DNA from: Rhodobacterales bacterium 32-67-9 | GTDB lineage: Bacteria > Pseudomonadota > Alphaproteobacteria > Rhodobacterales > Rhodobacteraceae | Direction: 5' to 3' | Assembly (NCBI GenBank): GCA_002280515.1 | Contig: NCEA01000025.1 | Span: 1-36,445 of the forward strand | DNA: 36,445 nucleotides | Shown: positions 1,192 through 35,899 of the stretch, one piece after another | Layout of the letters: each line of letters starts with the position of its first letter | Numbering within the stretch: position 1 is the first letter of the stretch | Notes under the pieces: generated by a model | The model's database searches: none | The model's input: the letters and a program-made list of their open reading frames with translations, nothing else | Told to the model about the DNA's origin: nothing | Program-made: the position numbers and the translations under genes

Positions 1192-1194
1192 GGT

Positions 1195-3350: not shown

Positions 3351-3366
3351 GGCTGTCCCTCCGGGG

Positions 3367-4335: not shown

Positions 4336-5723
<1,388 letters not shown>

Positions 5724-5735
5724 GGCCGTTTCTCC

Positions 5736-6926: not shown

Positions 6927-6964
6927 CTCGTCATCCTTCCGGCGGGCGGGACGCCCGCGTCCAC

Positions 6965-7603: not shown

Positions 7604-8109
7604 GAGCCGAAGACCCGCGCTGAATCGCTGACATTCGTGACGATCGGCGCCAGCGTCCCCCCGTTCAGTCCGAAGATGCCGGCGAAGGGAAAGGTGATGG
7701 AGACTTTGGCGGTAACGCTCGCCACCGGGGCCGGACTGATCCGGTAGGTGCCCGCGACGCAGGTGAGCGCAGGCGTCACGGAGTTGACGATGACGCCGGC
7801 CGGCAGGAAAGAACCGCCGGACGTGCTCTGGCCGACGATGGTCTGCAATTGCGGCGCATAGCCCGAGACCGAGCCCCCGGTCGTGCAGATGTCCGACGGC
7901 ACGACGCGGGCAAGATAGCGCGTGGCGTCGCGCACTCCGCCGATGGCGCTCTGGAAGGCGATCATCAGGCGGCTGCCCTCGATGATGACCGCGAAGACGA
8001 GAAGCATCATCGGCAGGACGATGGCGAACTCGACCAGCGCGGCCCCGTCTTCGCCGCCCAGGAAGCGGCGGAGCCGACCGAAACGTCCGGATGTGGGGGT
8101 TCGGGTCAT
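7600..8109 (-). CDS. TadE-like pseudopilin
   Basis: A 169-residue protein with a basic leader, then GGEDGAALVEFAIVLPMMLLVFAVIIEGSRLM. This is the TadE N-terminal signature, with cleavage predicted after the Gly of EDG and the conserved Glu five residues on. The rest is a periplasmic beta-rich region with two cysteines (ICTTGG, ALTCVAG). It lies 3 bp after the TadG-like gene and overlaps the next pseudopilin by 4 bp. Both pseudopilins share the same start of sequence (MTRT) and the same layout, so they probably arose by duplication. Confidence 0.82.
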   Translation of the reverse strand: MTRTPTSGRFGRLRRFLGGEDGAALVEFAIVLPMMLLVFAVIIEGSRLMIAFQSAIGGVRDATRYLARVVPSDICTTGGSVSGYAPQLQTIVGQSTSGGSFLPAGVIVNSVTPALTCVAGTYRISPAPVASVTAKVSITFPFAGIFGLNGGTLAPIVTNVSDSARVFGS

Positions 8110-8112
8110 CGC

Positions 8113-9603
8113 CTACCTGTAAAGCTGCACGACATCGTGGAAGACCCCGCCCGACCCACCGGTGCCGCTGCCGGCCCCGCCGGCCGAACCCACCACCTCG
8201 ACCCAGAGATCGAGCGTCGGCGGCGACAGGCCGTCGGTGCCGACCGGCTCGGTCAGGAACATGCGGAAGAACTCCTCGACCGGCACGTTGTTGGTCTGGC
8301 CGTTGATCTGGGTTCCACCGGCGTTGGGGTCGCAGTTGACGGCGGCTGCGACGACGACGCGGCGGTCGGGGTCGATCGACTGGTAGCTGGAACATTGCGG
8401 GCGCCCGGTCTCGGCCAGGCCGCTGAGGATCGCGGTGGTCGACGCGCCGCCACCGGCCGCGGCGATCTCGGCGAGGTAATATTCGTAGCGCGTCGAAGCA
8501 CCGGGATGCGGATCGGTGCCGCCGTAGTTCGCCGCGACATAGGCGGTGCGCCCGACCGACCAGTCGCCGTCCCCATAGCGGCCGCCGCTGCCGCAGGTGC
8601 CGGCGCCGAAGCAGGTGTCGCGCGGCAGGCCGAGCGTATCGGGCGAGGGTTGCGGATTGCCCCCGATGCAGGCACCACCGCCGCTCGGCACGATGCCCTT
8701 GATCACGTTCGGCGCCGGCGCATAGGCCGGATCGTTCTTCTTGCCGTTCATGATCGCATTGTAGATGTCGAAGCGGACATTGAAGCTCGCATCCTCGATC
8801 CCGACCTTCTGGCCCGGCTCGGTATCGACGCCGCGCTGGGCGAAACACTGGGTGATGGAGCCTTGCGCCCCCAGCAGGCAGGCATCGAGTTGCGCACCCG
8901 TCAGGCCGCCGCAGGGTCCGTTCGGGTCGACCTTGGCCTTGGAGGGGTCGAGGAAGCCGAAATCGCCCGGCCCCCAGGCCGCGTTGTTGCCGCCCGACCG
9001 CAGCAGGATCATGTCGCCGATATTGGCGTCGGCCTTGTAGTTCGGCGTGGGCAGGCAGAACATGAGCGGAGTGATGTCGCAGGCGTATTGGGTGAACCCG
9101 GCGACCGCAGTGGCGCCGACGCTGTTGTTGGCGGGCGTGTTGCCGGTGAGCGCGAAGAAGGCCGCACCGAAGGAGAAGGCGACGGTCTTCGGTGTCATCA
9201 CCACGCGGGCATAGATCGCGTCCTCGGGCACCGTCGTCAGCCCGGCGGCGAGGCTCGCCGTGTCGCTGGCCGCCGGCAGCGTGTCGTAGAAGTCGATGGC
9301 ATAGTCGACACCGCCCGCCAGCGCTTGCGCGCCGTTGCCGAAGGTCTGGCTGTCGGTGATCAGGTTCGCCGCCGCATTCGTGGCGCGGGTGATCGAGTCG
9401 CTCCGCCCGTCAAGCTCTCCGGCGGCGGCGAGCGCGACCTGGTCGGCATAGGCCTGAAGCTCGGACTGCGTCGCGGCGATGCGGCCGAAATCGAAGGAGA
9501 GCGCCACGATGCCGAGCACCACGGCGAGCGCCAGGGCCCAGAAGACCAGCACCGCGCCGGCTTCGTCCGACGTGAAGGTCGCGATGGCGCGGCGGCGTGT
9601 CAT
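8113..9603 (-). CDS. tadG: TadG-like pilus assembly protein
   Basis: A 496-residue protein. The N-terminus (SDEAGAVLVFWALALAVVLGIVALSFDFGR) is a TadE/G-like helix of the DUF2134/TadG type, followed by a helical segment that starts SELQAYADQVALAAAGELDG, as in TadG proteins. The large periplasmic part is Gly/Asn/Cys-rich. I do not see a clear von Willebrand A MIDAS motif. The start at 9603 (MTRRRAIATF) has a GGGAG ribosome site; a longer version from 9651 overlaps the region before cpaB and adds an implausible N-terminus. It lies between cpaB and the pseudopilins in one apparent operon, where other Tad loci often have the secretin genes. Confidence 0.75.
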   Translation of the reverse strand: MTRRRAIATFTSDEAGAVLVFWALALAVVLGIVALSFDFGRIAATQSELQAYADQVALAAAGELDGRSDSITRATNAAANLITDSQTFGNGAQALAGGVDYAIDFYDTLPAASDTASLAAGLTTVPEDAIYARVVMTPKTVAFSFGAAFFALTGNTPANNSVGATAVAGFTQYACDITPLMFCLPTPNYKADANIGDMILLRSGGNNAAWGPGDFGFLDPSKAKVDPNGPCGGLTGAQLDACLLGAQGSITQCFAQRGVDTEPGQKVGIEDASFNVRFDIYNAIMNGKKNDPAYAPAPNVIKGIVPSGGGACIGGNPQPSPDTLGLPRDTCFGAGTCGSGGRYGDGDWSVGRTAYVAANYGGTDPHPGASTRYEYYLAEIAAAGGGASTTAILSGLAETGRPQCSSYQSIDPDRRVVVAAAVNCDPNAGGTQINGQTNNVPVEEFFRMFLTEPVGTDGLSPPTLDLWVEVVGSAGGAGSGTGGSGGVFHDVVQLYR

Positions 9604-9622
9604 GGCGATGGCTCCCAACGTG

Positions 9623-10426
9623 TCACTCGACCTCCACGACCTCGACGGCATTGGCGCGCCGTACCTTGATCGTGGACTTGGCGACGACTTCTGTCACCGG
9701 CGACTTGTCGCGCAGGATGTCGGAGAGGCGGATCGAATCGAGCGGCTGGTCGACGGCATTGTCGAGCGTGCGGAGCGACAGGCTGAGCGTGCCGGCCTTC
9801 TGCGCCAGCGCCAGCGTCTGGCCCTGCTCCGGCGTCACCTCGACCGTGACAGTCTTGGCGATCTCGGGTTGGTCGCTTTGGCGGTCCGCATCCTGGTCGA
9901 CGCCGAGGATGCGGATGTTCTGCAAGATAGTGACGGCCCGCAATGTGGCGTCGCGGCCCTGGGTCAGCACGATATCGACGCTGTCGCCCGGCGTGACAAA
10001 ACCACCGACGGCGGTCTCGGCCTCGACCTTGATCGCCATCGCGCGGGTATTTTCGCCAAGGCTTTGCACGATCGTCACCTTCTCGCCGAAGTCGGAGACC
10101 TTGGAGGAGAGGATCAGTTCGCCTTGCGCCATCTCGCGGGTGGCCCGGCGCGGCGGCATGCCGGGGGCGGGAACGAGCGTGTCGAGTTCGGTGATGGCAC
10201 CCGGCGGCAACGCCGTGCGGGGCCAGGCCATGACCTGCAACATCTGCGGCTGTATCGCCTGACCGAAGGGAATATCGCGTCCCGCCACGATGACGGAGAC
10301 GAGTGCGGCCTCGGGATCGGTCGCGGCGACGGCGCGGCTGCGGTCGAGGTATTCGCGGGCGCCGAAGGCCGATCCTCCGGCGACGGCGACACCGAGCAGG
10401 GCGACGAGGATGGAACGGGCTCCCAC
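9623..10426 (-). CDS. cpaB: Flp pilus assembly protein CpaB/RcpC
   Basis: A 267-residue protein with an N-terminal membrane helix (about residues 5-25). A SAF domain follows (VIVAGRDIPFGQAIQPQMLQVMAWP), then the RcpC/CpaB central domain (ENTRAMAIKVEAETAVGGFVTPGDSVDIVLTQ) and a C-terminal region ending in VEVVEVE. CpaB is a periplasmic, inner-membrane-anchored component thought to link to the secretin. I place the start at the GTG 10424-10426, because AGGAGA lies 7 bases upstream; the frame before it has no family resemblance. Its usual partner cpaC (secretin) is not next to it. Confidence 0.87.
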   Translation of the reverse strand: MGARSILVALLGVAVAGGSAFGAREYLDRSRAVAATDPEAALVSVIVAGRDIPFGQAIQPQMLQVMAWPRTALPPGAITELDTLVPAPGMPPRRATREMAQGELILSSKVSDFGEKVTIVQSLGENTRAMAIKVEAETAVGGFVTPGDSVDIVLTQGRDATLRAVTILQNIRILGVDQDADRQSDQPEIAKTVTVEVTPEQGQTLALAQKAGTLSLSLRTLDNAVDQPLDSIRLSDILRDKSPVTEVVAKSTIKVRRANAVEVVEVE

Positions 10427-10504
10427 GGCAATTCTCCTGATAACTGGTCGGGACGGGGTGAAGTGCGCGTCAGTCCCGGGTCGCGCTTGGCTTGAAGTCG
10501 TTGT

Positions 10505-10538
10505 GCAGGCCGGGTCGTTGGTGCGCCGCCCGGCCTGC
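10505..10538 (-). terminator. GC-rich hairpin between flp and cpaB (possible attenuator)
   Basis: GCAGGCCGGG (10505-10514) and CCCGGCCTGC (10529-10538) form a perfect 10-bp stem with a 14-base loop, starting 16 bases after the flp stop. No U-tract follows. Its position suggests partial termination or a 3'-end stabilising structure that would let the major pilin be made in excess over the assembly proteins. That role is inferred from position. Confidence 0.5.
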
Positions 10539-10553
10539 AAAAGCTCTGGTGGC

Positions 10554-10730
10554 TTACGGCATCGCAAGGCCGGCCGCGGCAAGCGCGCCGTTGATGTCGC
10601 CGCCGAGCGCCAAGAGGCCGCCGGTTCCGACGGCGACGGCCAGGGCGACTGCGACGCCGTATTCGACCAGGGTCACACCTTCGTCGTTGTGACGGAAGGA
10701 ACGAAGCTTCTTCATCAGAGTTGCGCGCAT
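10554..10730 (-). CDS. flp: Flp family type IVb pilin
   Basis: A 58-residue protein that is too short to be obvious by size alone. It has a basic leader (MRATLMKKLRSFRHNDEG), then the Flp motif G/VTLVEYGV (cleavage after Gly18, Glu and Tyr at +5 and +6). The hydrophobic helix of mature Flp pilin follows, and a short tail ends GLAMP. The ATG at 10728-10730 has a GAGGAG ribosome site 7 bases upstream. It is the first gene of the Tad operon and the major pilus subunit; a hairpin separates it from cpaB. Confidence 0.93.
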   Translation of the reverse strand: MRATLMKKLRSFRHNDEGVTLVEYGVAVALAVAVGTGGLLALGGDINGALAAAGLAMP

Positions 10731-24973: not shown

Positions 24974-27039
24974 TCCTTATCGAGGCCGGCGAGCGGACCG
25001 ACAAGGCGTTCGACGCCAAGCTTCTGGTCGCGACGCAGCTTGCCGCGCGTGGCCACCGTGTCGTCCTCGACGACCGCACCCGCCCCGAGAAGGTGGAGCG
25101 CTACCAGAAATACGAGGTGGCGGCCTTTCTCGCCGATCTGGGCGGCGTGACGCTGCGCCGGGTGATCCTGATCGGCGCCGAAAGCGTTGCGCAGGACACT
25201 ATGATGGCGCTGCGCGGATTACGGCTCGGCGCGGACGTGGCGGTTTCCGTCGTCGGCCGCTTCGCCGACCGGCAATCGGCCATCGCGGCGCGGGCCAAGG
25301 TCGCTTATGCCATCGGGCGCGAACCCGACCTCGTCGATCTCGCCACGCTTCAGGGGCCGCCGCTCGTCGCCAATGCGATCTCGCCGCTTGCCGCAGCGCC
25401 GACGCCGGTGCCGCCAGAGCGGTTGACGCAAGTGTTCATAGTCCTGCCGCAGGAGGCGCTGGATGATCCGCAGACCCTGCCGGTCCTCTCGGCGATGGAC
25501 AACCTGCCGGACTACCGGCTGAACGTGATCCTGCCCGGCAAGGGCAAGGAGCAGGTCAAGGCGTCGCGCCATGCCGGGCTGACGGTCTTCGGCTATTCCG
25601 AACTTTCGCCGGCCGCCTTCGCCCGGCTCGCCGACATTGCCGCCTTCTTCGGCGACAGTGTCCCCGGCGAACGCATGGCGGCCTTCGCGCTCGATCTCAT
25701 GCGGTCAGGGCGGGTGGCGATCGATTGTACCGCGTCGGGCGGCTTCCTCGCGGGCGGCGCGCCCGTGCTGCGCGGCCCCGAAGAGATCGCGGCGCTCGCG
25801 AACTATGTCCAGCACACCGTGCTGGTGAACCGGCGCGAGATCGGTCGGCAGGCGCAGAAAAGCCCGTGGCTGGCGACGCATTCTGTCGAGGCGCTGGAAC
25901 AGGCGCTGGGCCTTGAGGCAACCGTGACGGCGGCCGACGCACCTGAGGGGACGGCAGCAAGCCGGTCAGTCTTTTTGCCCACCAACGGTGTCGGCCTAGG
26001 CCATGCGCGGCGCTGCACCCTCATCGCCGAGGCGATGGGGCCGGGCGCCGACCCCGCCTTCGCCGCCTTCCCAAGCTGCGTGCCGCTCATCCTCGACCGG
26101 GGGTTCGACTGTCTGCCGCTGGTGCAGAAAAGCCCGGACCATGTGGAAGACCACGCCAACGACCTTCTGAGCTACCTGCGGCTCCGCCGGGTGCTGAGGT
26201 CGGGCGACCGGCTGATTTTCGACGGCGGGTTCGTCTTCGATTCGATCCACCGGGTGATCCTTGAGCACGGCCTTGACGCGACATGGATCCGGCGCGGGCT
26301 ATGGCAGGCGGGGCAAACCCTCGCCACGGCACTTGACCGCGAACACACGTTTGCCCGGGTGATCGTGCCGGGCGAGGCTTTTGCCGAACTGAACAGCGAC
26401 CGCAGCACCGGCACGCATGTCCACGCCGTCGGGCCGATCGTCCAGCGACTGCCGCAGCCGGATGGCGCCGAACGGGCGGCCCGCCGGGCGGCACTTGGCC
26501 AGATGCTCGGGCGCGAGGTGGGCGAACTGGTCGTGACCATGCTCGGCGGTGGCGTTGCCGCAGACCGGACGGCGCAGATGCAGGCGCTCGCCACGCAGCT
26601 CGATCTACGGCCGGGCTGCCTTCACCTCATCGTGGTCTGACCCGGCGCGGTGGTTCCGGCCGGCCTTGCAAGCTGGCGCAACACGTGCGTGGTCCAGACC
26701 CAGAACGCCCTCGCCCTGTGCCAGATCGCCGATCTGGTCGTCTCGGCCACCGGCTACAATTCCTTCCACGAACTGCTCTACCATGCGGTGCCGACGATCT
26801 TCGTGCCGCAGATGGCGACCTTCATGGACGATCAGGAACGCCGCGCGCGCGCCGCTTCGGACCGGGGTCTGGCCGAGACTGTGCTGGCCCACGAGGTCCT
26901 GCTTCTGGAGCGCGAGGTGCGGGCTTTCCTCGACAAAGACAAAGCCGAGCGGATCCGTGCCGCGCTGGTGGCGGCGACGTTGCCCGAACCCGGCAACTGC
27001 GACGCGGCCGCCCTCATCCTCGGGGAGGAACCGCGATGA
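24970..27039 (+). pseudogene. Two-domain glycosyltransferase interrupted by an in-frame TGA
   Basis: One frame runs from ATG 24970 to TGA 27037-27039 with a single internal TGA at 26638-26640. Residues 1-320 resemble a degenerate GT-B domain. From about residue 330, FLPTNGVGLGHARRC is the acceptor-domain start of a MurG/UGT-like enzyme. After the TGA, in the same frame, comes the matching donor domain with LVVSATGYNSFHELLYHAVPTIFVP, then MDDQERRARAA. The full product would be about 689 residues; the truncated one (556) would lack the nucleotide-sugar site and should be inactive. A single base change from TGG would explain the stop. Readthrough cannot be excluded, and the 3' part could be translated separately only from a weak start such as GTG 26650. 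Confidence 0.75.
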
Positions 27040-27470
27040 CCCCGGACCACTGGCTTTCGGTTCTGGCCCGGATCACGCCCGCGGGCCCGGTCGACCTCGA
27101 TGCCGGCGAGGCACCGTCTGTGCGGCGGGGGACGGGGCTTGGCGGTTGGCCGTCCGACCTTCCGCCGCCGTCGCCCCGGCTCTGGGACCGCGAGGATACC
27201 GGCGCCACCTATCTCGGCATCCGGATCGACGCGCCGCTCCCCGATCCGGCCCGCACCGCGCTGCGTCTCGCCGCTGCCGCGCTCGAACGCGGGGTGACGC
27301 CGATCATCCTGACCTCTCACGCGCAATGCGGGTTCGAGCGTTTCGGCTTCCGTGTCGAACGGTTCGTGCCCGGCGTCGGCGCCGACCGCGCCGCGTGGGA
27401 GGCCGAGATGACCGCCTTCTGGTCGCTCGCGCTCATCATCGACGCGACCGACGTCGCGGCGCTTGGCTGA
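27036..27470 (+). CDS. Unrecognised 144-residue protein
   Basis: A 144-residue soluble protein, without signal peptide or membrane helix, that I do not recognise. It has Pro-rich and acidic stretches, then an alpha/beta-like C-terminal part (LRLAAAALERGVTPIILTSHAQ, VERFVPGVG, MTAFWSLALIIDATDVAALG). The single Cys lies in HAQCGFERFGF. Its ATG overlaps the stop of the glycosyltransferase gene (ATGA), and the strong G/C third-position bias supports a real gene. The link to glycan synthesis rests on operon position only. Confidence 0.65.
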   Translation: MTPDHWLSVLARITPAGPVDLDAGEAPSVRRGTGLGGWPSDLPPPSPRLWDREDTGATYLGIRIDAPLPDPARTALRLAAAALERGVTPIILTSHAQCGFERFGFRVERFVPGVGADRAAWEAEMTAFWSLALIIDATDVAALG

Positions 27471-27476
27471 GCCTTT

Positions 27477-27500
27477 CGGAACTCATCGGACCAAAGGCCG
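27477..27500 (+). promoter_or_regulatory. Candidate response-regulator site before the two-component genes
   Basis: CGGAAC (27477-27482) and CGGACC (27487-27492) are spaced 10 bp start to start. The second belongs to a 21-bp stretch (27480-27500) that matches 31107-31127 at 18 of 21 positions without gaps, sharing the exact core TCATCGGACCAA. The site ends 58 bp before the kinase start codon, a good place for control of the kinase/regulator operon. Confidence 0.5.
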
Positions 27501-27558
27501 TATCGCCCGGAGACAATGGCCCCTAGAACGTAACGCGAGGTAGCCGGCCGGACGCGCG

Positions 27559-28956
27559 ATGAAGCCACTCTTAAGGTCCTGGAACGATCTTTCGCTTGCG
27601 GTGCAGTTTGCCATCGCGGGCGGCGTGATCATGGTTCTGTCGATGGTTCTCATTGGCCGCATCGTCACGGCCCGGATTCAAGACGGGGTGGTGCGCAACA
27701 CCGCGCTTGCCACGTCGCAATACATGGACAGCATCATCTCGCCGCTAAGCCAGGACATGGCGGACGGTGATGTGCTGTCTTCCGGCGCCCGCCGCGCGCT
27801 GGACGAGATCTTAACAAACACACCACTCGGCGGACGAGTGGTTTCGTTCAAGCTCTGGAAGCCGAGCGGGCTGGTCGTCCACGCGACCGATCCTACGATC
27901 GTCGGGCAAACTTTCGAAGTCAGCAGTGATCTCGGCGCGGCCATCGCGGGCGAGGTGCGCGCCAACTTCAAGGATTTGAATGACGAGGAGAACCAGAGCG
28001 AAAACGCCCTCGGCATGCCGCTCCTGGAGGTCTATTCTCCGGTGCGCGAGGTCTGGTCCGGCAAGGTGATCGGTGTCGCCGAATTCTACGAGGTTGCGAC
28101 CCAGCTTGAACACGACCTCACAGCGGCCAAGCGCAACAGCTGGACCGCCGTGGCGCTGACATTCCTGTCGATCGGCGGAATTCTCTATCTCATAGTCCTG
28201 CGAGGCAGCCGGATCATCGACCGCCAGCGCGACGAGCTGACCGCCCAGCTTCGCGAGCGCGACGCGCTGTCGGCCCATAACATGGCGCTTCGCCGCAGGG
28301 TACAGCAGGCGGCCGCCCGGGCCTCGGCTATGAACGACCAGGCGCTTCGGCGCATCGGCGCCGATCTTCACGACGGCCCAGCCCAGCTTCTCAGTTTCGC
28401 GGCGCTTCGGCTCGACGCGCTGCGCGGTCAGGTCCGCGACACCGCCGAACTCGACTCGGTGGAGCGCGCGGTCAAGGACGCGATCCGCGAAGTGCGCTCG
28501 ATCTCCAAGGGTCTCTCGCTGCCCGATATCGACAGCCGCAACGCCGAGCAGATCGTGCGCGGCGTCGCCGAGACCCACGCGGCGCGGACCGGGGCGCCGG
28601 TCGCCGTGAACTGTGAGCTGCCGGTGGATCTCAGCTTGTCGCAGGCGGCCAAGATCTGCCTCTACCGCTTCGTGCAGGAAGGGCTCAACAATGCGTGGCG
28701 CTATGCCGGCGGGGCCGGGCAGGAGGTGGAGGTCCGCTCTGCCGACGGTGTCCTGCACCTTGCGGTCAAGGACCGGGGGCCGGGAATGACGCCGGGGGCG
28801 GACGGATTGCCGGCTGGTGGCGGGGACTTTTCCGGCATCGGCCTGCGCGGTCTGCGCGACCGGATCGAAAGCCTCGGCGGAACCCTGACCGCGGGCAACC
28901 GCGAGGACGGGGCAGGCGCCGAGATACGGATGGAACTGGACATGAGGTCAACGTGA
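27559..28956 (+). CDS. NarL-type sensor histidine kinase
   Basis: A 465-residue membrane kinase. The first helix is at about 13-35, a periplasmic sensor region of about 155 residues follows (PDC/CHASE-like by size, not confirmed), and the second helix is at about 194-215. A coiled-coil linker (DRQRDELTAQLRERDALSAHN) leads to the HisKA_3 box IGADLHDGPAQLLSF with phospho-acceptor His271. The ATPase domain has FVQEGLNNAWRYAGG (N box), DRGPGMTP (G1) and GIGLRGLRDRIESLGG (G2). The signal is unknown. The stop overlaps the response-regulator start (TGATG). A phased CGGA(A/C)C site pair lies upstream. Confidence 0.92.
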   Translation: MKPLLRSWNDLSLAVQFAIAGGVIMVLSMVLIGRIVTARIQDGVVRNTALATSQYMDSIISPLSQDMADGDVLSSGARRALDEILTNTPLGGRVVSFKLWKPSGLVVHATDPTIVGQTFEVSSDLGAAIAGEVRANFKDLNDEENQSENALGMPLLEVYSPVREVWSGKVIGVAEFYEVATQLEHDLTAAKRNSWTAVALTFLSIGGILYLIVLRGSRIIDRQRDELTAQLRERDALSAHNMALRRRVQQAAARASAMNDQALRRIGADLHDGPAQLLSFAALRLDALRGQVRDTAELDSVERAVKDAIREVRSISKGLSLPDIDSRNAEQIVRGVAETHAARTGAPVAVNCELPVDLSLSQAAKICLYRFVQEGLNNAWRYAGGAGQEVEVRSADGVLHLAVKDRGPGMTPGADGLPAGGGDFSGIGLRGLRDRIESLGGTLTAGNREDGAGAEIRMELDMRST

Positions 28957-29603
28957 TGGATCAAATCCGCGTGGTCATTGCCGACGATCATCCGCTCTAT
29001 CGCGAAGGGGTGGCGCGCAGCTTGTCCGATGATGCGGCGATCACGGTCGTTGGGCAGGGGATGGACGCCGACACGGCAGTCGAGCTGACCGAGCGGCTGC
29101 AGCCCGACATCGTGCTTCTCGACCTCTCGATGCCGTCTGGCGGCGGGATCGGAGCGCTCCGCCGGATCATGGCGATGGAGGCGCCGCCACGGGTCGCGAT
29201 GCTGACCGTGTCCGAGGAGGACGACGATGTCATGCAGGCGCTGAAGGCGGGCGCGGTCGGCTACGTGCTGAAAGGCGTCGGTTCGCGCGAGCTTGTGTCC
29301 ATCGTGAAAGACGTGGCGCGGGGGCAATCCTATGTCTCGCCGACGCTCGCCGCGCGCATTCTCAACGCGATGCGCGACGGCGGCACGGCGCGGCGCAGCG
29401 CCAACCCGATCGACGATCTTTCAAAGCGGGAAGAGGACATCCTCATGCTCGTCGCCGAAGGCAAGAGTAACAAGGAAGTTGGCCGCGCGCTCGACCTTCA
29501 GGAAAAGACCGTGAAGCATTACATGACCGCGATCCTGCAAAAGCTGCATGTGCGCAACCGGGTGGAGGCGGCGGTGCTGGTCCGCGATCACCGGAAGAAA
29601 TAG
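28956..29603 (+). CDS. NarL/FixJ-type response regulator
   Basis: A 215-residue regulator. The receiver domain has Asp10-Asp11 (VVIADDHPLYREG), phospho-acceptor Asp56 (IVLLDLSMPSGGG), Thr84 in MLTVSEED and Lys106 (VGYVLKGVGS). A LuxR-type helix-turn-helix follows (LSKREEDILMLVAEGKSNKE, then VKHYMTAILQKLHVRNRVEA). It is the cognate partner of the kinase encoded immediately before it. Its gene converges with the acidic repeat protein gene, 16 bp apart. The shared 21-bp sites at 27480 and 31107 are the best guess for its binding sites. Confidence 0.93.
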   Translation: MDQIRVVIADDHPLYREGVARSLSDDAAITVVGQGMDADTAVELTERLQPDIVLLDLSMPSGGGIGALRRIMAMEAPPRVAMLTVSEEDDDVMQALKAGAVGYVLKGVGSRELVSIVKDVARGQSYVSPTLAARILNAMRDGGTARRSANPIDDLSKREEDILMLVAEGKSNKEVGRALDLQEKTVKHYMTAILQKLHVRNRVEAAVLVRDHRKK

Positions 29604-29619
29604 TCGGCCGCGCCGGATT

Positions 29620-30306
29620 TCAGTCGAGGTTCAGCATCTCGCGGATGCGGCGAATATCCTCGGTCGTGACGGGGCGGCGGGCGACGGTGCGGCCGCGCGG
29701 GTCTTTCAGAACGTAAGAGCCGCGCGAAACGATCTCGCGCCAGCCGCGGAAATCGGTGATGTCGATGGCGCCGCTCGCCTCGTTCACCTGGGCCACGTTC
29801 TGCACGCCTTGCCGGCCTGCCGCCGACCCGAGCGTCCGCAGCCGGTTCAGGTCCGACCGCCGCGCCGCCCGTCGTTCGACGACACGACCGCGCGCGTCGA
29901 GCTTTTCGAAGCGGCTGCCGCGAATGCGTTCGGTGTGGCCATCCGAAAACTGGACATGGATGCCGTCGCCGCCAAAGAGCGCGGCACCACCGGATCCCGA
30001 TCCGCCGGATGCGGTGCCGGCGTTTCCTGACGCCGAGTTGCCTGTGCCGGAACTGCCTGAGCCGGAACTCCCTGAGCCGGAACTCCCTGAATTTGAACCG
30101 CTGCCTGATCCGGAACTGCCTGAGCCCGAGTTGCCTGAGCCGCTTCCGCTGTTGTCGTCGTCATCGTCGTCATCGTCATCGTCATCATCCGAGGATCCGC
30201 TGCTGGCATGGGCCGCGCCGCTGTCAGCGTCAACAAGCGGCTGAATCACCGGCAGAACGCCCCAGATCAGGGCGGCGAGAAGGAAGAAGACAACGAACCG
30301 CCGCAC
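29620..30306 (-). CDS. Exported Asp/Ser/Gly-linker protein with two copies of an unrecognised domain
   Basis: A 228-residue protein from the GTG at 30304-30306, which is preceded by AAGGGGG at 5 bases; longer starts give an unlikely N-terminus. A signal peptide or anchor (FVVFFLLAALIWGVLPVIQ) is followed by 12 consecutive Asp (coded by 30154-30189) and about 55 residues of Ser/Gly/Asn repeats. The C-terminal 125 residues hold two related segments: VQFSDGHTERIRGSRFEKLD followed by ARGRVVERRAARRSDLNRL, and ITDFRGWREIVSRGSYVLKD followed by PRGRTVARRPVTTEDIRRI. The same segment ends the neighbouring protein (30408-30962). I know no name for it. An acidic linker of this kind may bind Ca2+ or keep the domain extended; both are guesses. 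Confidence 0.7.
   Translation of the reverse strand: MRRFVVFFLLAALIWGVLPVIQPLVDADSGAAHASSGSSDDDDDDDDDDDDNSGSGSGNSGSGSSGSGSGSNSGSSGSGSSGSGSSGTGNSASGNAGTASGGSGSGGAALFGGDGIHVQFSDGHTERIRGSRFEKLDARGRVVERRAARRSDLNRLRTLGSAAGRQGVQNVAQVNEASGAIDITDFRGWREIVSRGSYVLKDPRGRTVARRPVTTEDIRRIREMLNLD
30048..30189. repeat. Short tandem repeats coding the Ser/Gly and Asp linker
   Basis: From about 30048 to 30150 a degenerate 15-bp unit of the form CTGAGCCGGAACTCC recurs, coding Ser-Gly-rich pentapeptides on the minus strand. 30154-30189 is a pure run of GTC/ATC trinucleotides coding 12 Asp. Unit lengths are multiples of three, so slippage would change linker length without breaking the frame. Confidence 0.7.
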
Positions 30307-30353
30307 AGGGGCCCCCTTCGAAAAGTGACCGGTAGCTGGACGACCGGCCGAAA

Positions 30354-30380
30354 CCCGGGGCGCGCTGCGCACGCCCCGGG
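30354..30380 (-). terminator. Hairpin terminator between the two acidic repeat genes
   Basis: CCCGGGGCG (30354-30362) and CGCCCCGGG (30372-30380) form a perfect 9-bp GC stem with a 9-base loop. In the minus-strand direction it is followed by a short TTT. It begins about 28 bases after the stop of the gene at 30408 and would limit transcription into the 29620-30306 gene. Confidence 0.6.
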
Positions 30381-30407
30381 CCTTGTCACACATTGCGCCT
30401 GACCACC

Positions 30408-30962
30408 TCAGTTGAGACTCAGGATCCGGTCGAGATCGGCCTGCGTCGCCCGGCGTTCCTCGACCGTGCGACCGGCTGCATTCTTGCGCTCGTAGCGGCC
30501 GTTTTCGATCTCTTCCTTGGTGCCGTCGGAATAGCGGACCTCGACCCCGGAAGAGGAGACCTCGATCTTGGAAACGGTCACGCCACCGTTCGCCCCGTCT
30601 GTCGAACCGCTGCTCGTACCGCCGGAACTGGACGAGGACGAGGAGTCGTCGTCGCTGCTGTCGTCGCTGCTGTCGTCGTCATCGTCGCTGTCGTCGCTGC
30701 TGCCGGAGCCGCTGCTGTCGTCATCATCATCGTCATCGCTGCCCGAACCGCTGTTGTCGTCATCGTCGTCATCGCCACCGCCGGAGCCGCTGTGGTCGTC
30801 GTCGCCATCGTCATCGCCACTTTTCGCGAACGCCTGGGACGCTTTCACTGCGATGATGCCCTCGGCCTTGTCGAAGGTCATGTGGAACGGCAGCGCAACG
30901 ATGAAGGCCGCGGTGCCGAGCATAACGGCGAGACGACCGGACTTGAATGTGATGTCTTCCAT
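30408..30962 (-). CDS. Exported Asp/Ser-rich protein with one copy of the same unrecognised domain
   Basis: A 184-residue protein. The N-terminus has one hydrophobic helix (LAVMLGTAAFIVALPFHMTF), likely an uncleaved anchor or long signal. Residues about 48-115 are almost only Asp, Ser and Gly in blocks of acidic runs separated by SGSG. The C-terminal 50 residues (IEVSSSGVEVRYSDGTKEEI, then GRYERKNAAGRTVEERRATQ) match the two segments in the 29620-30306 product. The net charge of the linker is strongly negative. The ATG at 30962 has AAGGAA 7 bases upstream. The promoter region holds a cluster of CGGACC half-sites, suggesting control by the adjacent two-component system. Confidence 0.75.
   Translation of the reverse strand: MEDITFKSGRLAVMLGTAAFIVALPFHMTFDKAEGIIAVKASQAFAKSGDDDGDDDHSGSGGGDDDDDDNSGSGSDDDDDDDSSGSGSSDDSDDDDDSSDDSSDDDSSSSSSSGGTSSGSTDGANGGVTVSKIEVSSSGVEVRYSDGTKEEIENGRYERKNAAGRTVEERRATQADLDRILSLN
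30640..30822. repeat. Trinucleotide-rich tract coding Asp/Ser blocks
   Basis: The plus strand reads as runs of GTC, ATC, GCT and CTG triplets with occasional CCGGAGCCG spacers. On the coding minus strand these give Asp and Ser blocks with Gly-Ser-Gly breaks. The tract is probably prone to slippage and to collapse in assembly. Confidence 0.7.
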
Positions 30963-31034
30963 GTTCGTATTCCTTGCTGGTGATCGCCGGCCTCTCCGAC
31001 GCTGTCACACTCGTCGCACAAGGGCCAAGTCGTT

Positions 31035-31128
31035 CGGAACACCCCCGCGACCAGTGCGGACCTTCCCCGGACCTCATGCCTGGCATCATCGGCCATTCGT
31101 CCGTGCAAGTCATCGGACCAAGGTCCGA
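31035..31128. promoter_or_regulatory. Cluster of phased CGGACC half-sites upstream of the acidic repeat gene
   Basis: CGGAAC (31035-31040), CGGACC (31057-31062) and CGGACC (31068-31073) lie 22 and 11 bp apart, that is on one face of the helix. A perfect palindrome TCGGACC-AA-GGTCCGA occupies 31113-31128. The stretch 31107-31127 matches the site before the kinase gene at 18 of 21 positions. The rest of the gap (30963-31164) shows nothing else I can identify. The leftward gene starts at 30962. Confidence 0.55.
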
Positions 31129-31164: not shown

Positions 31165-32211
31165 TCAGTCGGGCTGGTAGCCGCCGATCAGTTGCCGAAG
31201 GCCGAACATGCCGCCGGCGACGATCGCGGCCAGCGTCACCGGCGCCGAAAAGGCGAGCGTCGCCATCGCGGTGACGCCCTGACCGACCGAGCAACCGAGC
31301 GCCAGCGTACCGCCGATCCCCATTAGGGCCGCGCCGGAGACCTGCCGGCCAAGCTCGCGCGGGTCTTCGCAGGCTTCCCAGCGGAAGAGGCCGCGGATCG
31401 ACGATCCGGCGAAGGCGCCGAGAAGCACGCCCGAGACGATGCCGACCGAAAAGGTCACGCCGCCGGCCGTCGAGGTCATGAAGAAGATGATGGTGCGGCC
31501 GAGGGGGGCGGTGAAGGAGGGGCCTTCCACCCCGATCTCGCCGAAACTCGCTTCGTAGAGCCAGCTTGTCGCGACAAGGCACCAGACGACGGAAAGGCCG
31601 GCCGCGACGCCCCAGGCGACCTTGGCCCTCGCCTGCCTCAGCGGGGCATGCGACAGGCCCCAGCCGAGGACGGCAAGACCGACGACCAGCGCGAAGGCCA
31701 ATGGCGGCAGACCTGTCCTGGCCGAGAGCCAATGGGCGATGCCTTGGGGGCCGGTCGCGTCGGCCTGCGGAAAGAGCGCGGTGCGCAGCGCCGCAATCGG
31801 GCCGGACAGGGTGACGAAGGCGAAGATGCCGATGACCACGACCACGACAAGTGACCGGAGGTCGCCGCCACCGAAGCGCACCAGCGCGCCGAAACCGCAA
31901 TTGCCGGCCATCGCCATGCCGTAGCCGAAGATCAGCCCGCCGACGATCGAGGCTGCGGGACTCCAGGCAATCGTATGGTAGAAAGCTGCGGTCGGATCGG
32001 CGAGGCCGAGGGCTTCGGCCACGAACGTGCCAATGATCGCGACACCAAGGACAACACCCCAGAGCCGAAGGCGCCGTTGATCGGCGCCGTAGACCGCCGA
32101 TTCGAGCGCGCCGAGCGTGCAGAAATCGCCGAGCCGTGCCGCGAGGCCCAGTACGAGACCGCCCATGAGGCCCGCAAGAGCGGCCAGAACGCCCGGTGGT
32201 ATCGTCTCCAT
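31165..32211 (-). CDS. soxT: SoxT, YeeE/YedE (TsuA-like) sulfur-compound transporter
   Basis: A 348-residue membrane protein with about nine to ten helices. The Cys positions conserved in YeeE/TsuA thiosulfate channels are seen: Cys31 (RLGDFCTLGAL), Cys105 (AGNCGFGALVRFGGGD) and Cys307 (LALGCSVGQGV). TsuA passes thiosulfate by transient hydrogen bonds to such cysteines. In sox loci the homologue next to soxR is called SoxT and is thought to import a sulfur compound, possibly the inducer of SoxR. It is the last gene of the leftward soxS-small ORF-soxR-soxT unit, 23 bp after soxR. Confidence 0.87.
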   Translation of the reverse strand: METIPPGVLAALAGLMGGLVLGLAARLGDFCTLGALESAVYGADQRRLRLWGVVLGVAIIGTFVAEALGLADPTAAFYHTIAWSPAASIVGGLIFGYGMAMAGNCGFGALVRFGGGDLRSLVVVVVIGIFAFVTLSGPIAALRTALFPQADATGPQGIAHWLSARTGLPPLAFALVVGLAVLGWGLSHAPLRQARAKVAWGVAAGLSVVWCLVATSWLYEASFGEIGVEGPSFTAPLGRTIIFFMTSTAGGVTFSVGIVSGVLLGAFAGSSIRGLFRWEACEDPRELGRQVSGAALMGIGGTLALGCSVGQGVTAMATLAFSAPVTLAAIVAGGMFGLRQLIGGYQPD

Positions 32212-32234
32212 TCCCGTTCTCCCCCCTGCCGTAT

Positions 32235-32606
32235 CTACCTCTCCCGGCAGAACAGCTCGTTCAACAGTCCGATCATGCGTGCGGTTCGCGGGTCGCTCAA
32301 GGAATAGTGGATCAATTTCCCGTCGCGCCGCGCCTTGACCAGCCCCTCCAGCCGCAGTCGGGCGAGCTGCTGGCTGACCGCAGCCTGCCGCGAGGCAAGC
32401 AGCGTTTCAAGTTCAGTCACCGATTTTTCGCCGTCGATAAGATGGCACAGGATCATCAACCGGCCTTCGTGGGCCAGTGCCTTCAGGTAGCCGGCCGCCG
32501 CGTCCGCCTGACCGACAAGATCGTCGGCCACTTCCGGCCCGACATCTTCGGCAGGTGGATGGCTTGCAACGCCGGACCCCCGGCGGTTTTCAAAGGGCCA
32601 GGTCAT
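32235..32606 (-). CDS. soxR: SoxR, ArsR-family repressor of the sox genes
   Basis: A 123-residue winged-helix protein of the ArsR/SmtB family (LKALAHEGRLMILCHLIDGE, then SVTELETLLASRQAAVSQQL, then the KARRDGKLIHYSL wing). Two cysteines, Cys54 in helix alpha-2 and Cys120 near the C-terminus, sit where the persulfide sensors SqrR/BigR have their redox pair, so it probably senses sulfane sulfur and releases DNA when the pair is bridged. Homologues repress sox genes in Paracoccus. The start at 32606 has no strong ribosome site and overlaps a 40-codon ORF, which could supply translational coupling; a shorter start near residue 26 (GTG) is possible. Candidate operators are at 33100-33120 and 34532-34547. 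Confidence 0.9.
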   Translation of the reverse strand: MTWPFENRRGSGVASHPPAEDVGPEVADDLVGQADAAAGYLKALAHEGRLMILCHLIDGEKSVTELETLLASRQAAVSQQLARLRLEGLVKARRDGKLIHYSLSDPRTARMIGLLNELFCRER

Positions 32607-32712
32607 CCACGATCGCCGCGATACCGTCGCGGGCCCGCTCGTGACCGCTCTCGGGTGCGTCGGTGGCAGTGGCGCCGGCCAGCATGTCCTTCTCGCCCCA
32701 TTGCCGCCTCAT
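32590..32712 (-). CDS. 40-residue small ORF between soxS and soxR
   Basis: An ATG at 32710-32712 overlaps the soxS stop (ATGA). The frame runs 40 codons to a TGA at 32590-32592, overlapping the first 17 bases of soxR. The peptide starts MRRQWGEKDMLAGATATDAP and ends GIAAIVDDLAL. Third positions are mostly G or C, as in real genes here. It has no Cys, membrane helix or signal. It may encode a real microprotein of the sox regulatory unit, or act only as a coupling frame that brings ribosomes to the weak soxR start. I know no named family. Confidence 0.5.
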   Translation of the reverse strand: MRRQWGEKDMLAGATATDAPESGHERARDGIAAIVDDLAL

Positions 32713-33083
32713 CGCACCGCCTCCACTTCGTACTCACCGGTATCCGTCAGCATCCGCGCGAGGAGGCCCCAGAAGAAGTCCTCTCCCGGATAGCCTTCGA
32801 TCCGGCCGGCTTCCCGGTCACCCTGAACCAGGATGAAGGTCGGTGTGAAGACCGGACGCGGCCCGAGCGCGATCCCCTCGGGATACGGGCCGCGCAGCTG
32901 CACCCGTTCCAGCGGCGCGGCCTGTCCTTCCGGCGTCTTGGGGTAGATCGGCGCGATATCGGCATTCCAGCGCGCGCAATAGGCGCAGCCCGGCTGCTCC
33001 ACCATCAGGAGCCGCAATTCCGCCGCTGCCGGCGCCGCGAAGGCCGCCAGAGCGAGGGGCAGAAGGGCAAGAGCGCGCAGCAT
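32709..33083 (-). CDS. soxS: SoxS, periplasmic thioredoxin-like protein
   Basis: A 124-residue secreted thioredoxin-fold protein with signal peptide MLRALALLPLALAAFAAPAAA. The CxxC pair Cys33-Cys36 lies in EQPGCAYCARWNADI, and a cis-Pro is in FTPTFILV. In Paracoccus, SoxS keeps the thiol of SoxY active and is needed for full sox expression. It is the first gene of the leftward unit, divergent from soxV, with AGAGG 9 bases before the ATG. The intergenic gap of 71 bp holds an AT-rich inverted repeat. Confidence 0.9.
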   Translation of the reverse strand: MLRALALLPLALAAFAAPAAAELRLLMVEQPGCAYCARWNADIAPIYPKTPEGQAAPLERVQLRGPYPEGIALGPRPVFTPTFILVQGDREAGRIEGYPGEDFFWGLLARMLTDTGEYEVEAVR

Positions 33084-33085
33084 GG

Positions 33086-33154
33086 TTGACGCCTCTGCAA
33101 TTACATATAAAAATTGTAATATGTTTTTGCGTTAGGGGCAAGGCGGGGACACCC
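33086..33154. promoter_or_regulatory. soxS-soxV divergent promoter with candidate SoxR operator
   Basis: ATTACA (33100-33105) and TGTAAT (33115-33120) form a perfect inverted repeat with a 9-bp AT spacer, in the most AT-rich spot of the sox region. Toward soxV, TTGACG (33086-33091) with TAAAAA 16 bp further is a possible promoter whose -10 lies inside the repeat. The soxS-soxV gap is one of the two places where Paracoccus SoxR is known to bind. GGCGGGG before 33155 is the soxV ribosome site. Confidence 0.6.
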
Positions 33155-33895
33155 ATGCTTTTCGATCCGACCTTCGCTGGCGCGCTCCTGGCGGGGCTGC
33201 TGTCTTTCCTCTCGCCCTGCATCCTGCCGATGGTGCCGTTCTACCTGTGCTACATGGCCGGGATTTCGATGGCGGAGCTGCGGTCGGACCAGACCATTGC
33301 GCCGGGGGCGCAGAAGCGGCTGATTCTCTCCGCAATCGCCTTCGCGCTTGGCGTCACGTCGATCTTCATGCTTCTCGGCATGGGGGCGACGGCGCTGGGG
33401 CAGGTGTTCCGGCAATGGCTAGAGCCGCTGTCCTGGGTCGCCGCCGCGATCCTCATCGTCTTCGGCCTGCATTTCCTCGGCATCCTGCGCATCCCGTTCC
33501 TTTACCGAGAGGCAAGGATTGAGGCGAAGGTGGAACCGACGACGGTCGTCGGCGCCTATATCATGGGGCTGGCCTTCGGCTTCGGCTGGACGCCTTGCGT
33601 CGGACCGGCGCTGGCGGCGATCCTGATGGTCGCGTCCAGCCTCGACGCGATCTGGCGAGGTGCGGCGCTGCTTTTCGTCTACGGCGCGGGCATGACCGCG
33701 CCCTTCGTACTCGCGGCGGTGTTCGCGAAACCGTTTCTTGCCTGGATGAACCGCAACCGCAAATATCTTGGCCATGTGGAAAAGATCATGGGGGTGATGC
33801 TCATCCTCTTCGCGGTGCTGATCGCCACCGGCTCGGTCAATGCCATTGCCGACTTCATGATCCGATACATGCCCTGGACGACGAATTTCACCTGA
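33155..33895 (+). CDS. soxV: SoxV, CcdA-type membrane thiol reductant transporter
   Basis: A 246-residue protein with six predicted helices. The two redox cysteines of the CcdA/DsbD-beta family are Cys22 in LSFLSPCILPMVPF and Cys148 in FGFGWTPCVGPALA. SoxV passes electrons from cytoplasmic thioredoxin to periplasmic SoxW and is needed for thiosulfate oxidation in vivo. The ATG at 33155 is preceded by GCGGGG; an upstream in-frame start would place coding sequence over the operator and is rejected. soxW follows after 21 bp. Confidence 0.92.
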   Translation: MLFDPTFAGALLAGLLSFLSPCILPMVPFYLCYMAGISMAELRSDQTIAPGAQKRLILSAIAFALGVTSIFMLLGMGATALGQVFRQWLEPLSWVAAAILIVFGLHFLGILRIPFLYREARIEAKVEPTTVVGAYIMGLAFGFGWTPCVGPALAAILMVASSLDAIWRGAALLFVYGAGMTAPFVLAAVFAKPFLAWMNRNRKYLGHVEKIMGVMLILFAVLIATGSVNAIADFMIRYMPWTTNFT

Positions 33896-33916
33896 CATCC
33901 CAGAGGGGGGGACACC

Positions 33917-34492
33917 ATGCTTCGCTTTTTCGCTTCCGCCGCCGTCGCGCTTTCGCTCGCCCTTCCGGTTGCGGCGCTCGAGGTTCCGCCTCTCGGCGAC
34001 GACGGCTTGCACAAGCCGACCTGGCTGCGCGACACGTTCAAGGACATGCGCGAGGATCTGGCCGAGGCCAATGCGGAAGGTAAGCGCCTTCTGGTCATTG
34101 TCGAGCAAAGGGGCTGCATCTACTGCACCAGGATGCACGAGGAAATCTTTCCCGAGCCCGAGATCGACGCTCTGATCCGCGACAACTATTTCGTCGTGCA
34201 GATGAACCTCTTTGGCGATGTCGAGGTCACCGACTTTGACGGGGAAGCGCTGCCCGAGAAGGACATGGCGGTGAAATGGGGGGTCGTCTTCACCCCGACG
34301 ATGATCTTCCTGCCGGAGGAGGTCGCCGAGGGGCAGACTGCCGCGCAGGCGGCCGTCGTGTCGATGCCCGGTGCCTTCGGCAAGCAGACCACCGCTGCAC
34401 TGCTGACGTGGGTGAAGGACCACGGCTACGACTCGGGGGAACATTTCCAGAAATACCTCGCTGAACGGGTCACCGGCGGCATGTCGAACTGA
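33917..34492 (+). CDS. soxW: SoxW, periplasmic thioredoxin
   Basis: A 191-residue thioredoxin-fold protein with signal peptide MLRFFASAAVALSLALPVAA. The CxxC pair Cys67-Cys70 is in VEQRGCIYCTRMHEEIF, and the cis-Pro lies in VVFTPTMIFLPEE. It takes electrons from SoxV and is thought to reduce Sox proteins in the periplasm. The ribosome site before 33917 is AGAGGGGG. A 121-bp gap with a promoter and operator follows before soxX. Confidence 0.9.
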   Translation: MLRFFASAAVALSLALPVAALEVPPLGDDGLHKPTWLRDTFKDMREDLAEANAEGKRLLVIVEQRGCIYCTRMHEEIFPEPEIDALIRDNYFVVQMNLFGDVEVTDFDGEALPEKDMAVKWGVVFTPTMIFLPEEVAEGQTAAQAAVVSMPGAFGKQTTAALLTWVKDHGYDSGEHFQKYLAERVTGGMSN

Positions 34493-34524
34493 GCGCGGAC
34501 GGGCGGCGATCCGTCTTTTACGCA

Positions 34525-34553
34525 TTCACATATTCACGCAGTTGAATTTTATG
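34525..34553 (+). promoter_or_regulatory. soxX promoter with SoxR-type operator in the spacer
   Basis: TTCACA (34525-34530) and TTTATG (34548-34553) are 17 bp apart. The spacer contains ATTC (34532-34535)-N8-GAAT (34544-34547), the type of site I recall for the persulfide-responsive repressor SqrR. A repressor bound there would block RNA polymerase directly. The soxW-soxX gap is the second known SoxR-binding region in Paracoccus. Confidence 0.6.
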
Positions 34554-34613
34554 TTGCATCTGGAGGCCGGCCTCCGCTACCTTCGGATTCGGGAGAGAAC
34601 AGGGAGGACTTCA

Positions 34614-35087
34614 ATGAAGCGCCATATTCTGCTGGGCCTGCTGCTGTCCGCCGTCGCGGTTCCGGCGGCCACGGCCGAAACCGCTCCGGCCGCCGTGACC
34701 TTCGAGGAAGGCGCCGTCGCGCAGTCATTGACGGGTGCCGCGGGTGATCCGGCTGAAGGGGCGAAGGTCATGTCGAGCCGCGCGCTTGGCAATTGCGTCG
34801 CTTGCCATACCGTGTCGGCGATGCCGGACGTGGCCTTCCAGGGCAACGTAGGTCCGTCGCTCGACGGCGCGGCCGGCCGGTGGGAGGAAGCCCAGCTTCG
34901 TGGAATCGTCTCTGATGCCAAGATGACCTTCGACGGCACGGTGATGCCGTCCTTCTACAAGACCGGGCCTTATATCCGTCCCGGCGACGCCTTCACCGGC
35001 AAGGCGGCGGAGGGCGAACTGCCGCCGCTGCTGACCGCGCAGCAGATCGAGGATGTCGTGGCCTATCTCCTGACGCTCAAGGATTGA
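34614..35087 (+). CDS. soxX: SoxX, monoheme c-type cytochrome of SoxXA
   Basis: A 157-residue periplasmic cytochrome with signal peptide MKRHILLGLLLSAVAVPAATA. The heme site is Cys61-Val-Ala-Cys64-His65 in GNCVACHTVS, and the likely distal ligand is Met111 in GTVMPSF. SoxXA couples thiosulfate to the SoxY cysteine and passes electrons to a small cytochrome. The ATG at 34614 has AGGGAGG 7 bases upstream; longer starts cross the promoter. Length and motifs are normal. Confidence 0.95.
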   Translation: MKRHILLGLLLSAVAVPAATAETAPAAVTFEEGAVAQSLTGAAGDPAEGAKVMSSRALGNCVACHTVSAMPDVAFQGNVGPSLDGAAGRWEEAQLRGIVSDAKMTFDGTVMPSFYKTGPYIRPGDAFTGKAAEGELPPLLTAQQIEDVVAYLLTLKD

Positions 35088-35128
35088 GCGGCCAGGGGAT
35101 CCGAACCAGACAGGAAAAGGAGCGTAAG

Positions 35129-35551
35129 ATGCAACTATCGAGACGGAATGCCCTGGCGCTCGGCCTTGGCGGCGTCGCCTTCGCCGCGCTTCCGCTGCCG
35201 GCGATGGCGGCGGGAACGGTCGAGGAGCTGACGGCGGCCTTCGCCGGCGGCGCCACGGTGGGCACCGGCGGGATCACCCTGACCGCGCCCGAGATCGCCG
35301 AGAACGGCAACACCGTGCCGATCACCGTGGACGCCCCAGGTGCCACCGCGATCATGCTTCTGGCCTCGGGCAACCCGACGCCGTCGGTCTGCACGTTCAA
35401 CTTCGGCCCCGCGGCCGGTTCGCAGGCGGCCTCGACCCGCATCCGCCTCGCCAAGACGCAGGACGTCGTCGCGCTGGCGAAGATGGCGGACGGCAGCGTC
35501 GTGCAGGCCTCGTCCACGGTCAAGGTCACCATCGGCGGCTGCGGCGGCTGA
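35129..35551 (+). CDS. soxY: SoxY, sulfur carrier subunit
   Basis: A 140-residue protein with a Tat-type signal (QLSRRNALALGLGGVAFAAL) and an Ig-like fold. The C-terminal swinging arm ends in GGCGG, so Cys138 is the residue that carries the sulfur substrate. SoxY is exported folded as a complex with SoxZ, which has no signal of its own. The ATG at 35129 is preceded by AGGAG. A second Cys is present in PSVCTFNFGP; it is usual for some SoxY proteins. Confidence 0.95.
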   Translation: MQLSRRNALALGLGGVAFAALPLPAMAAGTVEELTAAFAGGATVGTGGITLTAPEIAENGNTVPITVDAPGATAIMLLASGNPTPSVCTFNFGPAAGSQAASTRIRLAKTQDVVALAKMADGSVVQASSTVKVTIGGCGG

Positions 35552-35569
35552 GCTTAGGGAGCAAGAAAC

Positions 35570-35899
35570 ATGGCAAAAGATGTCAAACCGCGCGTGAAAG
35601 TCCCGAAGTCGGCCGCTGCCGGTGACGTGGTGACGATCAAGACGCTGATCAGCCACCCGATGGAATCGGGCCAGCGCAAGGACAAGGACGGCAACGTCAT
35701 CCCGCGCTCGATCATCAACCGCTTCACCTGTGACTTCAACGGCGTGAACGTGATCGACGTGACGCTCGACCCGGCGATCTCGACCAACCCGTATATCGAA
35801 TTTGACGCCAGGGTCGATGCGGCCGGCGAGTTCAAGTTCACCTGGTACGACGACGACGGCTCCGTCTACGAGGACACGAAGCCGATCGAAGTGGCCTGA
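35570..35899 (+). CDS. soxZ: SoxZ, partner of the sulfur carrier SoxY
   Basis: A 109-residue protein without a signal peptide, with the SoxZ signature KPRVKVPKSAAAGDVVTIKT, then LISHPMESGQRKD and ATG-proximal basic residues. It is an all-beta Ig-like domain that binds SoxY and travels with it through the Tat system. It starts 18 bp after soxY; both genes are commonly translated together. Confidence 0.95.
   Translation: MAKDVKPRVKVPKSAAAGDVVTIKTLISHPMESGQRKDKDGNVIPRSIINRFTCDFNGVNVIDVTLDPAISTNPYIEFDARVDAAGEFKFTWYDDDGSVYEDTKPIEVA

Follow-up and report, generated by a model that had tools for sequence, protein, structure and literature searches.

What connects a two-component system to the genes for acidic, repeat-rich proteins that lie beside it is the question raised by contig NCEA01000025.1 of Rhodobacterales bacterium 32-67-9 (GenBank assembly GCA_002280515.1), of which we analyzed positions 1 to 36,445 (hereafter the window). 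Here, genes for a sensor histidine kinase (27559–28956, plus strand) and a NarL/FixJ-type response regulator (28956–29603, plus strand) are followed by two minus-strand genes for acidic proteins (29620–30306 and 30408–30962), and the original prediction, made from the DNA alone, was that similar sites ahead of the kinase gene and of the acidic genes are both bound by the regulator. Comparative genomics supports this proposal, and we put the probability that the NarL-type regulator would control its own operon and the neighboring acidic genes at roughly 0.8, with binding itself predicted. Because many relatives keep the arrangement, the shared palindrome most likely serves as a switch that lets the sensor control both itself and the acidic proteins.

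The two stretches first singled out, 27480–27500 (aactcatcggaccaaaggccg) and 31107–31127 (aagtcatcggaccaaggtccg), do agree without gaps at 18 of 21 positions and have in common an exact 12-mer, TCATCGGACCAA (27483–27494 and 31110–31121); the first of them ends 58 bp before the kinase ATG (27500 to 27559). In the draft genome (3.7 Mb, 60 contigs, 93.6% complete) the 12-mer is found twice, both times in the window, and the reversed-pattern control not at all, which bears out the argument that the match is not due to chance. The genome-wide scan that had been proposed thus confined the exact word to the two sites, whereas a 16-mer allowing up to three mismatches was not enriched (420 matches vs. 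450 for the control), so the special feature of this genome is the pair rather than a genome-wide family of sites. The perfect palindrome described for the second site, with two 7-bp arms around AA, is present but spans 31113–31128, one base past the end it had been given.

We accordingly name two operators: operator 1 (TCGGACCAAAGGCCGT, 27486–27501, plus strand), a quasi-palindrome in the kinase promoter that is centered at about −42 and aligns in relatives, and operator 2 (TCGGACCAAGGTCCGA, 31113–31128, assigned to neither strand), which has the perfect arms and begins 151 bp upstream of the acidic gene start at 30962. The earlier reading overlooked a further near-palindrome within the acidic promoter; this operator 2b (ACGGACGAATGGCCGA, 31089–31104, minus strand) stands in tandem with operator 2 at 24 bp and has a counterpart at the same spacing in L033, L034, L037, L039, and L056 (6.0 to 15.7 bits). 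The additional half-sites noted earlier are all there, namely CGGAAC at 27477–27482, 10 bp from the first site, and CGGAAC at 31035 followed by CGGACC at 31057 and 31068 (spacings of 22 and 11 bp). The kinase-side half-site shows no conservation among the aligned relatives; arrays similar to the acidic-side ones recur, by eye, in several relatives, and in the window the minus strand of 31057–31073 carries two direct GGTCC half-sites 11 bp apart that may have a regulatory function. Just 5′ of the kinase lies a gene (27036–27470) encoding a 144-residue protein with no Pfam or NCBIfam match, 16 bp past the last base of which operator 1 starts.

A palindrome of this kind might instead form an RNA hairpin serving as terminator or attenuator, or be a repeat or a chance match. 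Operator 2 does lie just past the stop of the Sulf_transp gene, which is encoded on the strand of the acidic genes; its 2-nt spacer, however, leaves too little room for a normal hairpin loop, neither a T-run nor a terminator call is present, the 12-mer is not a repeat, and conservation of the sites is far above that of permuted controls, all of which makes this explanation extremely improbable.

If the sites have a regulatory role, they should recur in the corresponding gaps of related genomes, and we examined 58 loci comprising the window, 40 loci of kinase relatives, and 17 stretches from family genomes (20 such stretches less L106, L109, and L125, which lie on the same contigs as other loci in the set). 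Sites were scored with a symmetric 16-bp matrix built from 12 kinase-upstream sites only; these were chosen after viewing the aligned kinase promoters and include the window kinase site, which is shared with L033. Operator 2 has the highest matrix score in the window and operator 1 the second highest, the latter being itself one of the training sequences. The palindrome TCRGACC-WW-GGTCYGA recurs upstream of kinase orthologues and of adjoining acidic-protein genes in Rhodobacterales, and on the acidic side in Mesorhizobium and Limibaculum as well. An acidic-domain gene is present within the fetched DNA of 37 of the 58 loci (24 of the 40 kinase-relative loci, spanning Rhodobacterales, Mesorhizobium, and Limibaculum), and 28 of these 37 have a site of at least 14 bits near its 5′ end, against 1.3 expected from the remaining sequence of those loci and a mean of 3.6 (maximum 12) for 100 column-permuted matrices. 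Kinase promoters outside the training set reach 14 bits in 14 of 44 loci (expected 0.34; permuted mean 1.3, maximum 5). These counts and their expectations indicate strong conservation on the acidic side and, on the kinase side, conservation in part of the family; conservation in orthologous gaps, on which the original prediction was staked, therefore holds, but not every kinase gap has a site. Both sides carry one in the Rhizobiales loci L063 and L070, and nine of the 12 Mesorhizobium loci have an acidic-side site of at least 12 bits, which one of them (L070) combines with a kinase site. The window's exact 16-mer stands in Limibaculum (L067) upstream of a protein with four copies of the acidic domain and a DUF4214 domain.

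Kinase and regulator both have intact signature residues. The kinase has HisKA_3 and HATPase_c domains, a predicted CitA/DcuS-like periplasmic sensor fold, and its histidine at residue 271 in the motif HDGPAQ; the closest named relative, from a Rhodobacteraceae isolate, is 85% identical and Defluviimonas comes next. The regulator matches both the receiver (PF00072, 7e-24) and the DNA-binding family (PF00196, 6e-19) of NarL/FixJ proteins, retains Asp10/Asp11, Asp56 as the receiver aspartate, Thr84, and Lys106, and finds its best solved relatives in NarL, VraR, and DevR. Its recognition helix, EKTVKHYM, is kept in the orthologues: EKTVKH followed by YM or HM was read in all 49 orthologue rows readable in frame (out of 61 rows, two of them duplicates; L035, L036, L056, L061, and L115 were in the wrong frame and L052, L065, L072, L113, L122, L124, and L125 gave none).

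An unlinked transcription factor could also bind both sites and coordinate the two gene sets while the window regulator acts elsewhere, and the genome encodes at least 13 regulators with a GerE domain. We nevertheless consider this improbable on three grounds. First, the helix EKTVKHY is found in the window regulator and in none of the other 11 GerE proteins that could be aligned (12 of the 13 found; L178 did not align and was left out of the comparison). Second, a site stands directly behind the regulator gene in eight of 13 Cypionkella/Tabrizicola-like loci. Third, exact palindromes concentrate in genomes with this kinase: TCRGACCWWGGTCYGA occurs in seven of 198 family genomes (reversed control, 0 of 198), and five of the seven are among the 22 with a strong kinase match (E below 1e-60; hypergeometric p 2e-4), although the window genome, from which the pattern was taken, is one of the five. 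The remaining two are G022, where the site is inside a gene, and G104, which has a weak kinase match and two sites, one of them ahead of a giant RTX/cadherin-like protein.

The palindrome can also be used to find acidic genes away from the kinase. In a search of 16 genomes with a strong kinase match (15 relatives plus the window genome), TCRGACYWWRGTCYGA allowing one mismatch gave 40 forward matches vs. 11 for the reversed control. In four of these genomes the kinase stretch that was fetched contains no acidic gene (G006, for which 3.9 kb was fetched, G034, G111, and G132), and in two of the four the palindrome by itself pointed to acidic-domain genes on contigs other than that of the kinase: three acidic genes with three sites in G111 (L154) and one acidic gene in G132 (L148). 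The distance from gene start to site, with starts chosen by us, is 147 and 145 bp for two of the L154 genes and 104 bp in L148, beside 151 bp in the window. Elsewhere in G132 (L147, about 1317–2091), tandem operators 24 bp apart (2052 and 2076) precede an exported-looking protein with no Pfam match.

The kinase promoters also share a geometry. A putative −10 element, TAGAAC (27524–27529, plus strand), occupies positions 39–44 counted from the start of operator 1, and across 29 operator-aligned kinase promoters (the duplicates L106 and L125 and the ill-fitting promoters of L063 and L070 left out) a −10-like hexamer stands at the same positions, with T39 in 16, A40 in 21, and A42 in 17. Placing the transcription start 7 bases after the hexamer would put the operator center about 42 bp before that start. 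A site centered near −42, the lack of a good −35 hexamer, and a fixed distance to the −10 element are typical of class-II activation. Since the site is centered at about −42 and abuts the −35 region, class-II activation of the regulator's own operon appears most likely. The same abutment is compatible with the regulator binding both sites as a repressor that blocks polymerase until the signal arrives, but the geometry just described, together with the failure of a simple scan to find a consensus sigma-70 promoter at the kinase promoter, makes repression unlikely. Acidic promoters, checked in seven loci, show the hexamer at positions 39–44 in L070, L118, and L120 and one base further on in L063.

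Several observations weigh against control of both gene sets through this palindrome. Thirty of the 44 nontraining kinase promoters nowhere reach 14 bits, including those of the Cypionkella/Tabrizicola-like group and of 11 of the 12 Mesorhizobium loci. On the acidic side, nine of 37 loci miss 14 bits and six miss even 12 bits; strong sites stand elsewhere in the locus in four of these six (L039, 15 bits; L058 and L059, 15; L068, 19), and in the other two the acidic-adjacent site scores 10.5 bits (L114, which has a 16.6-bit site about 0.7 kb further upstream) and 9.8 bits (L119). Nor are the loci fully independent, because near-identical Mesorhizobium loci were retained in the counts. In the genome searches, 18 of the 20 nonlocal regions fetched (22 were found) have no acidic gene, a number of the order predicted by the reversed control, and several of the sites are inside genes; the nonlocal regions of G034 and G006 yielded no acidic gene. 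As for geometry, L063 and L070 have a kinase site with no −10 hexamer at the common distance, no clear −10 element was seen at the window's acidic promoter, and L067 and L116 likewise lack the hexamer at that distance on the acidic side. Only the position of the operator would favor activation over repression.

The presumed targets form a family of their own. The protein encoded at 30408–30962 (minus strand) is an apparently exported Asp/Ser-repeat protein with one conserved domain at its C-terminus (30411–30584), and that at 29620–30306 (minus strand; start at 30306 assumed, with the frame open to 30393) is a second acidic, Ser/Gly/Asp-rich, apparently exported protein with two copies of the domain. 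This domain, of about 58 residues (consensus IEVxYxDGxxEEIExGRYExKDxxGRTVxxRxATxADxxRL), occurs in one to four copies and sits behind Asp/Ser/Gly-rich stretches in many Rhodobacterales acidic proteins. Neither window protein has a Pfam or NCBIfam match above the curated cut-off, 52 copies of the domain gave weak matches only against Pfam, and no confident relative was found among solved structures. AlphaFold models the domain as five strands and a C-terminal helix (mean pLDDT 95); the TCP10 domain of the centriole protein CPAP was among the systems considered in comparison. The Asp-rich runs suggest that these proteins may bind cations.

In other lineages, different genes stand behind the operator. 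Loci were grouped by similar gene surroundings, without a tree, and the 13 forming the Cypionkella/Tabrizicola-like group (L041, L043–L045, L047–L051, L053, L055, L057, and L060) lack both a kinase site and, as far as the fetched DNA extends, an acidic gene. Eight of them (L044, L045, L047, L048, L049, L053, L055, and L060) carry a site of at least 10 bits directly 3′ of the regulator gene, with a second, weaker operator-like site 34 bp further on in L044, L049, and L060, and in all of the eight except L049 a small exported-looking protein follows. Six of these proteins are of a type with GGSGC near the C-terminus (L044, L045, L047, L053, L055, and L060; that of L044 has no Pfam match) and one, in L048, is of an RRGRGADD repeat type; L043 and L050 encode such small proteins too, with sites that are weaker or missing. 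Among the Mesorhizobium loci, a DUF1236-type gene has sites 138–185 bp upstream in L061, L065, and L072; BLAST groups L068 in this cluster as well, and Pfam confirmed one member. DUF4956 genes appear, among 14 gene tables, in L114, L117, and L119, each with a site 98–112 bp upstream (12.3, 16.5, and 15.0 bits), and a fourth, in G070, was found via its own site 116 bp upstream. Of these four genes, the three scanned against Pfam, in L114, L128 (the L119 gene), and L132 (the G070 gene), all match DUF4956, and the gene adjoining that of L114 matches VTC. The pairing of DUF4956 with VTC, which is of polyphosphate-polymerase type, suggests that in some relatives the regulon may include a polyphosphate-type operon. 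In G008, which has the kinase and regulator, three tandem operators (starts 2324, 2345, and 2363 within L165, 2324–4866) precede genes for a multicopper oxidase and SCO1/cytochrome c, a possible further target of the regulator.

Because the genes behind the operator differ across lineages, we tentatively entertain the broader hypothesis of a previously undescribed alphaproteobacterial module in which regulator and operator are kept and the cargo is exchanged, dedicated to a cell-surface, phosphate, or cation-handling response through a periplasmic CitA-like sensor. The exchanged cargo would comprise acidic-domain proteins in most lineages, GGSGC or RRGRGADD proteins, DUF1236 proteins, DUF4956/VTC in four relatives and, in single genomes, the multicopper oxidase with SCO1 or the RTX/cadherin-like giant. 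We regard this hypothesis as possible, though doubtful as it stands.

Known systems resemble the module in part. NarL is the best curated and the best PDB match of the regulator (NF007935, 177.3 bits; 1a04, E 5.9e-39), and the kinase of the Escherichia coli NarXL pair likewise has a HisKA_3 core; the window regulator nonetheless falls below the NF007935 equivalog cut-off (177.3 vs. 250 bits), and its operator is unlike the NarL heptamer, TACYYMT. DevR (DosR) of Mycobacterium tuberculosis and OsdR of Streptomyces are NarL/FixJ regulators of the same superfamily that recognize short palindromes, and the DevR structure 3c3w is among the best PDB matches of the window regulator, with EKTVK shared in the recognition helix. 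The DosS and DosT kinases sense through heme-binding GAF domains; no GAF domain was found in Pfam scans of the window kinase, whose sensor is predicted to be CitA-like. For OsdR, a 16-bp palindromic operator with the consensus AGGGCCGATCGGCCCT is reported, with sites that include some around the regulator's own genes (PMC5069765); against that consensus, compared by eye, the half-site letters of the window operator differ. The window module also differs from both systems in that its regulon looks local and small. The kinase resembles CitA and DcuS in its predicted extracytoplasmic PAS-type sensor fold between two membrane helices, with WalK and other PAS sensors scoring close to them, and departs from them in its HisKA_3 core and in that a Pfam scan matched no sensor domain of this type. 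Identity with MctSR was considered and rejected on scores (kinase 76.6 bits vs. a MctS cut-off of 700; regulator 138 vs. 300 for MctR). A literature search covering few subscription journals returned no description of this system, judged by title and start of abstract, among the matches listed.

The wider window contains, at 31165–35899, the Sulf_transp gene, an ArsR-type regulator nearest BigR (below the BigR cut-off), a weak thioredoxin match, and a CcdA/DsbD-like gene, along with what we take from their translations to be soxW, soxX, soxY, and soxZ; this sox-like neighborhood is not a recurring neighbor of the module in relatives. The translations of 700–10600 presumably represent a tad/flp-type pilus locus (prepilin peptidase-like, TadB/C-like, CpaF-like ATPase, CpaE-like, and CpaB-like).

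We propose a self-regulated two-component module in which the kinase would detect a periplasmic signal through its predicted CitA/DcuS-like PAS domain and, as gene order and the intact signature residues suggest, phosphorylate the NarL-type regulator. The phosphorylated regulator, presumably as a dimer, would bind the conserved TCRGACC-WW-GGTCYGA palindrome, activating the kinase operon in class-II fashion from the operator that abuts the −35 region; at the second promoter, the tandem sites 24 bp apart and the half-sites would drive the two acidic proteins that share the new small domain. These proteins probably act outside the cytoplasm and might, more speculatively, bind cations there. The regulon is most likely small and would consist mostly of exported proteins. 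For an uncharacterized two-component system there are thereby predictions of the operator and of the activation geometry, together with a short list of candidate targets, and acidic, apparently exported proteins that share a conserved, as yet unnamed domain are defined as a family across Rhodobacterales and Rhizobiales. Control of these proteins by a periplasmic sensor would offer a handle on what they are for.

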